The position numbers and the translations under genes were made by a program. Positions 35,690 to 54,531 of a DNA stretch of 64,000 nucleotides are shown here, one piece after another (the stretch's first letter is position 1; each line of letters opens with the position of its first letter). The notes beneath the pieces are model-generated. The model was given only the letters and a program-made list of their open reading frames with translations. It was not told the DNA's origin and searched no databases. Source of the DNA: Rickettsiales bacterium (GTDB lineage: Bacteria; Pseudomonadota; Alphaproteobacteria; Rickettsiales; SXRF01); NCBI GenBank assembly GCA_021299465.1, contig JAJTHB010000010.1:1-64000 (forward strand). Reading direction: 5' to 3'.

Positions 35690-35766
35690 CGGGGCGTAGC
35701 GCAGCCCGGTAGCGCGCCTGCTTCGGGAGCAGGAGGCCGGAGGTTCGAATCCTCTCGCCCCGACCA
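35690..35766 (+). tRNA. tRNA-Pro (anticodon CGG)
   Basis: 77 bases including an encoded 3' CCA. Acceptor stem CGGGGCG pairs with CGCCCCG; anticodon stem CCTGC/GCAGG holds the loop TTCGGGA with anticodon CGG; T-arm GGAGG-TTCGAAT-CCTCT. A degenerate copy of its 3' end lies about 790 bases downstream, the pattern left by insertions at tRNA genes. Confidence 0.97.
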
Positions 35767-35848
35767 TTGTTCGAACAAGTATTTTGTTTAGTATCAATGT
35801 GCTAATCTGTTATCATGTTTGACGAAGTATGTAGTACGGAAAATAAAA

Positions 35849-36433
35849 ATGGCACAGTCTACAGTAGTTTTAAATAAAGCATCCGTAGGTAAGCTCACTA
35901 AGTATATGCGCATTCTGGCTCAAGTTGGCGCTTCGCCAACAGAAAATCTAGAAGATGATGCCTTTAAATCAGATGTCGAGAAACGCATTGCTATGATAAC
36001 TGGTCCTATCATGGCATCAGCTTATGCAGCGGTGGCGGATGACTTAAACAATCTTGCCACACTAAGGCGTGATCAATTGGAAAAAATGATTCTAGAAAAA
36101 ATGAAAAAGAGCGAAATGGATTTTATAAATAATCCAAACAATGAAGCGTTATTGATTGAAATATCAAAAATTAGCCGCGCGCAAAGTCCGGAATGGGAAA
36201 GGTCAATTCGAGAAGGTGAAGCCAAAATACTGCCACGACATCCTAATCTCACCATTTGTCAAATGGCTGGATTTGCCCTTATAGGAGAAGTAGTGGGAGT
36301 ACATAAAGTCATGATGCCAAATATCTATGAGGTATTTGACGAAATAGCTGCTGAACAAGCCCAACAACAAACACCAAGCGTTTCTGGTGGTGGCACTATT
36401 CACAAGCCTGGGCGTTTTAAGAAACGAAAATAA
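35849..36433 (+). CDS. hypothetical protein, 194 aa
   Basis: Not recognised. Soluble, largely helical, with a run of charged residues in the middle (EKMILEKMKKSEMDF) and a glycine/basic tail (SGGGTIHKPGRFKKRK). I start at ATG 35849; a TTG at 35819 is in frame. It is the only gene between tRNA-Pro and the degenerate tRNA 3' copy and is more A/T-rich than the genes to its left, which suggests acquisition with that segment. Confidence 0.6.
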   Translation: MAQSTVVLNKASVGKLTKYMRILAQVGASPTENLEDDAFKSDVEKRIAMITGPIMASAYAAVADDLNNLATLRRDQLEKMILEKMKKSEMDFINNPNNEALLIEISKISRAQSPEWERSIREGEAKILPRHPNLTICQMAGFALIGEVVGVHKVMMPNIYEVFDEIAAEQAQQQTPSVSGGGTIHKPGRFKKRK

Positions 36434-36516
36434 TACCAGCGGCAATTGTTTTAGGCAGCCTCCTGCATCATAAATATCATTCGATTATGCATTTGTAAAA
36501 TCTCAAGTCTCAAATC

Positions 36517-36552
36517 GAGGCAGGTTCTAAATCCGTTCACTCGCTCCGACCA
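36517..36552 (+). repeat. degenerate copy of the tRNA-Pro 3' end (att-like)
   Basis: The stretch reads like a T-arm and acceptor 3' half: GGTTCTAAATCC followed by CTCGCTCCGACCA at 36540-36552. The last 13 bases match tRNA-Pro CTCGCCCCGACCA (35754-35766) at 12 positions. With tRNA-Pro it brackets 35767-36516. It could be the far attachment site of an old insertion, or a broken tRNA gene. No integrase is nearby. Confidence 0.45.
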
Positions 36553-36555
36553 TCC

Positions 36556-36623
36556 GTTAATCCAGCAAGCTTCGCTTGCTTGGGATTAACGAGATCCTCG
36601 TCACTACGTCAGTAGTGACGGGA
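36556..36623. repeat. two adjacent long palindromes
   Basis: First palindrome 36556-36590: GTTAATCC then AGCAAGC-TTC-GCTTGCT then GGGATTAAC, almost perfect over 16 pairs. Second 36595-36623: ATCC, CGTCACTAC-GTCA-GTAGTGACG, GGAT. Both sit directly upstream of a GIY-YIG gene. Their size and extended arms are like REP/palindromic mobile repeats rather than terminators; no T-run follows. Confidence 0.7.
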
Positions 36624-36647
36624 TGCGCCAACAAACAGGATGCTCTT

Positions 36648-36899
36648 ATGTGGTATGTCTACATCCTTGAAAGCGAAAACCACAGTGGAAAATTCTACAC
36701 AGGATTTACCGAGGATTTGAAGCGCAGACTCATAGAGCATAATGCAGAAGTAAATTCTGGGCACACCACAAAATACCAACCGTGGAAATTGCACGCCTAT
36801 TTTGCGTTCAGTGATAAAAAGACGGCGCAAGATTTTGAAGCATATTTGAAGACACAAGCAGGCCGAAGATTTCAGAAGTTGCGATTTAAGGCTGATTGA
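36648..36899 (+). CDS. single-domain GIY-YIG nuclease-like protein (first copy)
   Basis: 83 residues from ATG 36648, with AGGA seven bases upstream; the longer open frame runs back into the palindromes. Motif WYVYILES, then KFYTGFTEDLKRRLIEHN, the GIY-YIG signature with catalytic Tyr and Arg, followed by LKTQAGRRFQ. The UPF0213/YhbQ-type proteins of this size consist of the catalytic module alone. The weak GIY (here FYTGFT) is normal for the group. Flanked upstream by palindromes, like the second copy at 54193. Confidence 0.85.
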   Translation: MWYVYILESENHSGKFYTGFTEDLKRRLIEHNAEVNSGHTTKYQPWKLHAYFAFSDKKTAQDFEAYLKTQAGRRFQKLRFKAD

Positions 36900-37006: not shown

Positions 37007-37795
37007 ATGGCGTTGATTCATTTTGCTTTTGGAAGATATGCGCGAGATGGCGATATTGACACTCAAGTAACAAATACATGCGAAATGATTTTGGGTCCAC
37101 GCAAACTTAGGGCTGCCTCTTGTCCTGAATTTATTCCTATCCTGAATACTCCAAATAGTATTTCTTTTTTGCCTGAATCAGCACAAAGAATTCCTAATGG
37201 CGTTAGGCTTAATAAATTAGTTCCATCACCCCCAATTAGCTTGCTACGTGAAGATATTTTGATGCTTTGCTTTTCTGATTTGGCCCTTTCTAAGCTAAAA
37301 AATTGGCCATGTTTAAATCATTATGCGCAACTTGCCATTGTGTTTACGGATATGTTCAAGAAACGTATTGGAGCGCGGCCTGTACATTATTATGAGCTTG
37401 CTCATTTACCAAACGATCGAAAAGTTATCGAATTCAATCAAGCCTCCAACCAAGGTATTCAATCAGAAAAAATACAAAAACTAAAAGAAGAATTATTGAT
37501 TTATCGTAAACCCAAAGTGATGTGGCCAGAGTTTAGGAAACTATATGGCGTTATAAGAGTCTCCCAAACTAACTTTAAAGTAATTACCTATGATGACTAC
37601 ACTGAGGGGTACAATTTCTCAGCTGAATATGAGGCAAGAGTAATAATGAATAAAGAAAAGACGTTTATTCAATTTGAAGAAAAAGATGTGCTAAAGATTT
37701 TCGCGCCGACAATCGACGCGAAATTACAATTGACTCAATTTTTAACAAAGAATTGGAAGCAAGCTCCCCTTATAGAGTTATTTCCTAAGACATAA
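37007..37795 (+). CDS. AbiGi-like hypothetical protein
   Basis: 262 residues. The segment ILMLCFSDLALSKLKN, followed by HYAQLAIVFTDMFKKRIGARPVHYY, has the layout of AbiGi-family proteins (cysteine-phenylalanine strand, histidine-tyrosine, then a phenylalanine strand and PV-x-Y). AbiGi proteins are found in abortive phage infection systems, normally with an AbiGii partner, which is absent here. The match is from pattern only. The gene is A/T-rich compared with its surroundings and sits in the accessory stretch after tRNA-Pro, with gaps on both sides, so it is transcribed alone. Confidence 0.45.
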   Translation: MALIHFAFGRYARDGDIDTQVTNTCEMILGPRKLRAASCPEFIPILNTPNSISFLPESAQRIPNGVRLNKLVPSPPISLLREDILMLCFSDLALSKLKNWPCLNHYAQLAIVFTDMFKKRIGARPVHYYELAHLPNDRKVIEFNQASNQGIQSEKIQKLKEELLIYRKPKVMWPEFRKLYGVIRVSQTNFKVITYDDYTEGYNFSAEYEARVIMNKEKTFIQFEEKDVLKIFAPTIDAKLQLTQFLTKNWKQAPLIELFPKT

Positions 37796-53781: not shown

Positions 53782-54192
53782 ATGTTCGATAGCTCGATTG
53801 GTGAAAAAGCCAACAATATCGCCCAGCAAGCAACCGAGCTGGCTGAAGAGGTGAATGCACTGCAGCTACAACTACAGCAAAATAGCGGCGTTGATCCATT
53901 TGTATTCGGGCTAACAGTTTTTGTGCTTGCTTGTTTTGTTGGGTATTACGTCGTGTGGAAAGTCACCCCCGCCCTTCACACACCTTTGATGGCGGTCACT
54001 AACGCAATTTCTGGAATCATCATCATCGGCGCGATCATCGCACTCGGGCCTGATGGAGGGGACTTTTCACATCTCGTAGGCTTTATCGCCGTTGTGATAG
54101 CCAGCATCAATATTTTTGGCGGGTTCGTTGTTACTCAGCGCATGCTGTCGATGTTCCAGAATAAAAAATCCCTGCGAAAGCAGGGATCCTGA
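53782..54192 (+). CDS. pntAB: NAD(P) transhydrogenase subunit alpha part 2 (membrane)
   Basis: 136 residues. An N-terminal helix ([20 protein letters not shown]), then about three to four membrane helices ([60 protein letters not shown]) and the conserved [12 protein letters not shown]. The last residues LRKQGS are encoded by a REP-like palindrome (54168-54187), which means that an insertion supplied the present stop codon. Strong ribosome site GGAGGAAATAA. Forms the proton channel with PntB. Confidence 0.93.
54168..54187 (+). repeat. left REP-like palindrome (inside the 3' end of pntAB)
   Basis: ATCCCTGC-GAAA-GCAGGGAT, a perfect 8-bp stem with a GAAA loop, followed by CCTGA. It codes for the last residues of PntAB. 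The same motif in opposite orientation lies at 54505-54524 after the GIY-YIG gene; both share GCGAAAGC-R-GGGATCCTGA. Confidence 0.85.
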
Positions 54193-54528
54193 ATGAACGA
54201 AATGCGAAAATTCTATGTTTATATCATGGCCAGTAAAAAAGAAGGCGTTTTATATATCGGTGTGACCGATGATATCAAACGTCGAGGTGGTGAGCATAAA
54301 GACACCATCTATGAAGGTTTTACCAAAGAATATTTTGTGAGGCGTTTAGTTTATTTTGAAATACATCCTACCGCTGAAGAAGCGTCAAAGAGAGAAAAGC
54401 TGATGAAAAAGTGGAAGAGAGACTGGAAAATTCAACTGGTCGAGAAGCATAACCCTGAGTGGGTTGATATCTATGACTCAATACCGGGTTCCTGCGATGT
54501 CAGGATCCCCGCTTTCGCGGGGATATAG
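54193..54528 (+). CDS. single-domain GIY-YIG nuclease-like protein (second copy)
   Basis: 111 residues; ATG directly after the pntAB stop, or MRKFYVYI from 54202. Motif FYVYIMASKKEGVLYIGVTDDIKRR, with LYIG-V-T, the catalytic R and a following E, then KREKLMKKWKRDWKIQLVEK, typical of UPF0213-type GIY-YIG proteins. The last residues (RIPAFAGI) are encoded by the right palindrome. It separates pntAB from pntB, which normally are adjacent, and keeps the operon direction. An intact nuclease core next to palindromes suggests a mobile unit. Confidence 0.88.
   Translation: MNEMRKFYVYIMASKKEGVLYIGVTDDIKRRGGEHKDTIYEGFTKEYFVRRLVYFEIHPTAEEASKREKLMKKWKRDWKIQLVEKHNPEWVDIYDSIPGSCDVRIPAFAGI
54505..54524 (-). 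repeat. right REP-like palindrome (inverted copy)
   Basis: ATCCCCGC-TTTC-GCGGGGAT, perfect 8-bp stem. Read on the minus strand the loop is GAAA and the flank CCTGA, as in the left copy. It codes for the end of the GIY-YIG protein. Eight bases separate it from the pntB start. Confidence 0.85.
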
Positions 54529-54531
54529 AAT

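Follow-up and report, generated by a model that had tools for sequence, protein, structure and literature searches.

The stretch of DNA analysed here (the window, 64,000 nucleotides of a contig from a Rickettsiales bacterium) contains near 36 kb a small GIY-YIG nuclease gene behind two long, adjacent palindromes, which raises the question of what these palindromes are and how they relate to the nuclease. The original prediction, made from the window alone, compared them with a second GIY-YIG gene and its palindromes at 54 kb and suggested that each nuclease may recognise its own palindrome family. We find that the palindromes together form one copy, of class beta, of a structured DNA repeat located behind tRNA genes in many bacteria. 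The features of the locus are collected in Table 1.

Table 1. Features of the tRNA-Pro locus, window positions 35690 to 36899
Feature	Position	Strand	Evidence
Intact tRNA-Pro, anticodon CGG, CCA encoded	35690..35766	+	ARAGORN
Insert separating the intact tRNA-Pro from the older 3' remnant	35767..36516	+	Absent in L007 and L077-L079
Older tRNA-Pro 3' half remnant (T arm and acceptor, end CCGACCA)	36517..36552	+	Local alignment to tRNA-Pro of the window, L007 and L077
Palindrome 1, stem P1, class beta of the tRNA-end element	36555..36591	+	Compensatory changes in 5/16 pairs among beta copies
Palindrome 2, stem P2 (outer 4 bp, 1-nt 5' bulge, 9 bp)	36594..36624	+	Bulge position as in P2 of other classes
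GIY-YIG nuclease, single domain, 83 aa, ATG start	36648..36899	+	PF01541 and invariant residues

Pfam analysis and folding confirmed that a single-domain GIY-YIG gene stands here behind two adjacent palindromes. The ORF codes for the GIY-YIG domain and nothing else (PF01541, E-value=2.8e-17), and Y5, Y17, G19, R27, H31 and E64, which include the Tyr, Gly, Arg and Glu expected of the superfamily, are invariant across the subfamily. The only solved structures matched by sequence were UPF0213 proteins and the structure-specific nuclease SLX1, which fits a nuclease that reads a hairpin or branch; the homing endonuclease model TIGR01453 scored far below its cut-off. Palindrome 1 possesses the 16 or so pairs originally claimed for it, as 9 bp and 7 bp with a 2-nt bulge and the loop TTC. 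Palindrome 2 has a perfect core, CGTCACTAC-GTCA-GTAGTGACG, with its further 4 bp beyond the bulge, and the ATG follows 24 nt downstream. As had also been stated, no matching palindrome was found 3' of the gene. Folded together as RNA, the two hairpins reach -41.9 kcal/mol versus -19.4 for shuffled sequence (z=-7.4), and as DNA they give z=-8.2, none of 200 shuffles being as good in either case.

The original prediction had missed what stands directly in front of the palindromes, namely a 36-nt remnant of tRNA-Pro, after whose CCA the palindromes begin at a distance of 2 nt, and the intact tRNA-Pro about 750 bp upstream of that remnant. In the genus mate G007 (locus L007) the hairpin element directly follows tRNA-Pro without the insert. 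Four MAGs of Caulobacteraceae (L077-L080) have the same hairpins directly after tRNA-Pro, together with a nuclease 81-86% identical; the contig of L080 ends within that tRNA. The named relatives of the focus nuclease are in Caulobacteraceae and Rhizobium, which points to Alphaproteobacteria. A later insertion into tRNA-Pro has moved the repeat and the gene 0.8 kb from the intact tRNA; this insert carries an ORF (about 35852-36433) for which no family match was obtained.

Three minor observations concern these surroundings. The insert opens with TTGTTCGAACAAGTATTT, and a similar palindrome lies 3' of tRNA-Ala(ggc) in locus L064. At the second focus-type gene of the same genome (C24, locus L074), an insert with a 400-aa ORF also separates tRNA-Leu from the element. 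The product of the gene directly 3' of the GIY-YIG gene (37007-37795) resembles the AbiGi abortive-infection protein (PADLOC E-value=1.3e-7; Pfam score below cut-off), and it is possibly a small defence gene at the tRNA-Pro site.

The focus genome contains five GIY-YIG genes. One, in a 621-aa frame, was taken for UvrC; C17:54208 and a gene on C27 are of the 54-kb type, and those at 36 kb and on C24 are of the focus type. Using a cut-off of E <= 1e-18, the profile of the focus-type nuclease found matches in 35 of the 385 genomes of the class. Among the 29 loci of this class-wide set, 23 have a tRNA gene upstream on the same strand, of many isotypes and at 66-399 nt (22 of them within 154 nt); five others have a tRNA 3' remnant only and one is cut by the contig end. 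Across all 45 subfamily genes, a count which leaves out more distant GIY-YIG matches (L084-L103, several of which also follow a tRNA), 35 lie directly behind the CCA end of tRNAs of many isotypes, and a further nine lie behind a tRNA 3' end that ARAGORN did not call (eight remnants and one tRNA cut by the contig end). By comparison, a control group from the same family search, comprising genes of the 54-kb type or other single-domain GIY-YIG genes, has no tRNA anywhere in the locus (0/21). Where selection was estimated, in the gamma nuclease genes, it was purifying (median dN/dS 0.058 for 20 genes, with dS high).

The repeat itself is a structured family of about 75-110 nt, situated immediately behind tRNA CCA ends in constant orientation. 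Most copies are solo, and some are followed by a GIY-YIG gene of the matching clade. In the latter, the two-stem structure spans the interval from CCA to ATG; P1 starts on the A of the CCA or no more than a few bases from it, and P2 comes next. In classes alpha and delta P2 consists of 3 bp, a 1-nt 5' bulge, 4 bp (CGYC/GRCG), a 3x3 internal loop (GNA/GNA) and an end hairpin; beta P2 shares this plan and the bulge, and is without the 3x3 loop. Covariation analysis of 15 P2 sequences revealed that 98.1% of cells are paired and that six pairs have changed on both sides, whereas controls in which the partner was slid by 1-3 columns gave 31-40% paired and 0-2 such pairs. For beta P1 the figures were 100% and five pairs. 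The ratio of G-T to A-C mismatches was 13:2 in P2, which favours RNA over DNA as the active form, and 13:20 in P1, which does not. In a scan against Rfam 15 only tRNAs reached the gathering score, and the repeat had no match. A constant target-site duplication was considered and rejected, since just 5 of 43 loci have a second copy of the tRNA 3' end beyond the gene.

Nine other tRNA genes of the focus genome are followed by the element without a nuclease. It lies behind Thr, Gly, Val, Met (two) and Arg tRNAs, and in truncated form behind Pro(ggg), Gln and Leu tRNAs. The copy at tRNA-Arg(cct) (C23:86420-86492) is an intact solo beta copy with a compensatory change from T-A to C-G. When a covariance model trained without the focus genome was applied to that genome, its nine best matches comprised tRNA 3' ends, a single remnant of such an end and the C24 nuclease locus, and nothing else; class-wide, 32 of the 385 genomes gave a match at E <= 1e-4. 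Nearly all the solo loci inspected are at a tRNA or tRNA remnant, the exceptions being L213 and L227. Palindromes of the same type far from any GIY-YIG gene, which the original prediction had taken as speaking against its idea, were indeed found, though at the 3' ends of tRNAs; the factor common to the copies is the tRNA end.

Near-identical copies were discovered behind different tRNAs of one genome in G249 (Arg, Ser, Ser and Arg), in G025, and in G137, where they are at Leu, Ala and Leu and at a further Leu together with a nuclease. Tandem arrays of the element occur behind tRNA genes or remnants in L128, L284 and L285, the last two with a unit of ~97 nt present three times. Solo repeats are present in 14 of the 35 genomes with the nuclease versus 8 of the 350 without it (Fisher 3e-11, a co-occurrence confounded by host kinship, for which no correction is included), these eight having repeat-model matches and no nuclease above the cut-off used. 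Insertion was not directly seen: the search gave no empty and occupied site that matched cleanly on both flanks, and the tRNA-Val sites compared in one genus had a different repeat class, a truncated repeat or different surroundings, never a clean empty site. Elsewhere in the focus genome, T-arm or acceptor-like remnants lie within about 150 nt of several tRNA-Ser and tRNA-Leu genes (L070, L071, L072 and L074) and mark repeated insertion at tRNA ends.

The phylogeny of the nucleases was compared with palindrome type, as the original prediction had recommended. On a tree of 44 nucleases palindrome class requires 11 changes, compared to a mean of 25.1 for shuffled labels (0/200 shuffles as low), and tRNA isotype requires 21 on the same tree. 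Within the delta clade (15 rows) the class stays the same across Ala, Val, Met, Leu, His, Lys and Pro tRNAs. The element class is therefore paired with the nuclease and not with the tRNA. Exchange of such pairs is visible at the tRNA-Ala(ggc) locus in the genus of G375, of which 99 genomes were searched: a gamma element with a gamma nuclease occupies 25 loci (two more have an altered element), a delta element with a delta nuclease is found in seven genomes, and nine loci have solo or truncated elements, while the downstream sequence is common to all variants. No crossed gamma/delta pairs were found at this locus. Thus the part of the original prediction that gives each nuclease its own palindrome family is supported only as a correlation, in that class follows clade; recognition does not follow from it, since the gene and element are physically linked (palindrome-to-gene spacing ~130 bp) and the match could reflect a cassette that travels jointly. 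We also asked whether the linked repeat is nearest to the solo repeats of its own genome. The beta palindrome is present in 0 of the 384 other genomes of the class, yet there is an intact solo copy at the tRNA-Arg of the focus genome. The ten nuclease loci tested gave a strong result for the focus genome and G137 only, and in most of them the solo repeats were not the closest to the linked repeat.

We consider it rather probable that this is a REP/RAYT-like system of repeat plus nuclease targeted to tRNA 3' ends, in which a GIY-YIG enzyme replaces the tyrosine transposase. The repeat, with or without the nuclease gene, has the appearance of a very small mobile element that targets tRNA ends. 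What the data establish is its position, structure and covariation, the near-identical copies at different tRNAs, the exchange of cassettes and the purifying selection on the nuclease. As to mechanism, we infer that the nuclease recognises hairpins of its own class, perhaps as cruciforms or in single-stranded DNA, and that it cuts the tRNA 3' end or close by, thereby driving the movement of the repeat; repair from another copy would then put the repeat, alone or together with the gene, behind further tRNA genes. Target tRNA genes would stay intact because insertion falls after the CCA. More tentatively, the system may represent a widespread class of minimal mobile element for tRNA 3' ends, comprising a two-stem element that starts at the CCA, and that could be an RNA partner if co-transcribed, plus a GIY-YIG nuclease of 80 aa that acts on its own class only and copies the element harmlessly behind further tRNA genes; this we regard as possible rather than probable.

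Three other explanations were weighed. It is unlikely that the repeats spread by ordinary recombination among tRNA genes, or through integrases with tRNA 3' ends as their sites, while the nuclease does other work such as cutting incoming single-stranded DNA which bears hairpins. Integration at tRNA genes is indeed common, the remnants of tRNA 3' ends record repeated insertions, and the suggested role resembles that of Ssn enzymes as hairpin-specific single-strand nucleases; against this, the repeats start exactly behind the CCA in all isotypes, solo repeats are concentrated in nuclease-bearing genomes, and the neighbouring genes tested match no integrase family. Quite unlikely, in our opinion, is a repeat that works as RNA, that is, a structured 3' trailer cut from the tRNA transcript, aiding its end or processing and selected by the host, with the nuclease gene a passenger at a safe site. 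The constant tRNA sense and start at the CCA, the strong RNA fold, the conserved GNA/GNA loop of P2 and the excess there of G-U over A-C mismatches would all suit such a trailer. The distribution, however, is patchy, since only some tRNAs per genome, and only the 32 genomes matched at E <= 1e-4, have the repeat; isotypes vary, truncated copies and tandem arrays occur, and the class is tied to the nuclease clade rather than to the tRNA.

That two ordinary hairpins, such as a terminator or an operator, stand by chance before a small nuclease gene is scarcely credible. Perfect 9-bp hairpins taken singly are not unusual over 64 kb (five in the window versus 0-5 in simulated sequence), so that significance belongs to both palindromes jointly. 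The joint fold (z of -7 to -8) and the homologous pair at tRNA-Arg and in the four Caulobacteraceae MAGs, with compensatory changes, speak against coincidence, and a chance hairpin or plain terminator was ruled out by conservation and z-score.

The nearest known kinds to this REP/RAYT-like system are REP/RAYT itself, the Ssn nucleases, and the CGTC REPs, for which no enzyme is known (PMC3733652). As in REP/RAYT, the palindromic repeats are short and mostly solo, a lone nuclease gene has one copy of its repeat beside it, repeat type tracks enzyme type, and dispersed non-autonomous copies are present, here as solo copies at several tRNAs. The differences are that the tRNA-end enzyme is GIY-YIG and not Y1, and that its copies are behind tRNA CCA ends, whereas REPs are scattered between genes. 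The Y1 (RAYT) transposase was detected in 3 of the 12 genomes examined and not in the focus genome, which rules out a RAYT as mobiliser there. The GTAG tag at the hairpin foot is absent in beta, and the other classes have GTA inside the internal loop of P2.

Ssn enzymes are site-specific single-strand GIY-YIG nucleases which possess one GIY-YIG domain and have palindromic repeats beside the gene. The focus system is similar in both respects; unlike Ssn, it is located at a tRNA 3' end with a two-stem element. With the GIY-YIG homing endonucleases of group I introns it shares the nuclease domain and insertion at a conserved gene, but the element leaves the tRNA uninterrupted. Islands integrated at tRNA genes by a tyrosine recombinase likewise use the tRNA 3' end as their site and leave tRNA 3' remnants downstream. 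In contrast to these, the element is about 400 bp, starts constantly behind the CCA and seldom has a direct repeat (the 5 of 43 loci above), and no integrase was found among the neighbouring genes tested at the focus locus. In the archaeon Methanopyrus kandleri about half of the tRNA genes have a palindrome with an 18-nt motif a short distance behind them; that motif, however, is 10 bp from the tRNA, and no nuclease gene is reported with it (PMC5217627).

The CGTC REPs occur mostly in alpha-Proteobacteria without a dedicated transposase, and are defined by an unpaired CGTC tag, a stem starting with AT and the tail CCA (PMC3733652). The CGTC of beta P2, by contrast, pairs with GACG and is not an unpaired tag. 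In common with the CGTC-tagged REPs/dRS3 and the genes of the 54-kb type, the focus system has palindromes beside single-domain GIY-YIG genes. The 54-kb type differs: its gene has one hairpin on one side or on each side, a tRNA is never close (0/21), and the protein is of another subfamily. A palindrome common to both genes was ruled out on the protein subfamily, the hairpins and the tRNA, in agreement with the original prediction that the two sets of palindromes differ. At 54160-54530 of the window two hairpins of the dRS3/CGTC-REP type, TCCCTGCGAAAGCAGGGATCC and GGATCCCCGCTTTCGCGGGGAT, flank the other GIY-YIG gene, and the relatives L016, L021 and L022 also have hairpins on both sides; this gene type is a candidate for the enzyme of the CGTC REPs.

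No description of the arrangement of tRNA, repeat and GIY-YIG gene was found in the open-licence literature. The structured tRNA-end repeat is apparently undescribed, and there is a fair chance that the repeat-nuclease system deserves a class of its own. If our proposal is correct, there are REP-like repeat systems driven by GIY-YIG nucleases, and a branch of these multiplies behind tRNA genes, a safe harbour, without breaking genes. A function would thereby be gained for small GIY-YIG proteins, which are common and unexplained, and the structured tails behind many tRNA genes, ignored by annotation, would be accounted for. The pairs of nuclease clade and hairpin class would also provide ready tests of how a single-domain nuclease reads structure and sequence.

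Two observations extend beyond the class to which the window belongs. In two loci of the FCB group (L082 and L083, Marinimicrobia), tRNA-Ser, the element and a GIY-YIG gene are followed by a second tRNA 3' end and element, which are clear direct repeats. Distant single-domain GIY-YIG genes were found 30-150 nt behind tRNA-Gln, or behind Asn or Met tRNAs, in L086, L087, L091, L095 and L098 (also L099 and L100), the hosts being Elusimicrobia, Planctomycetota, Omnitrophota and Terrybacteria; the link of single-domain GIY-YIG genes to tRNA may reach across phyla.
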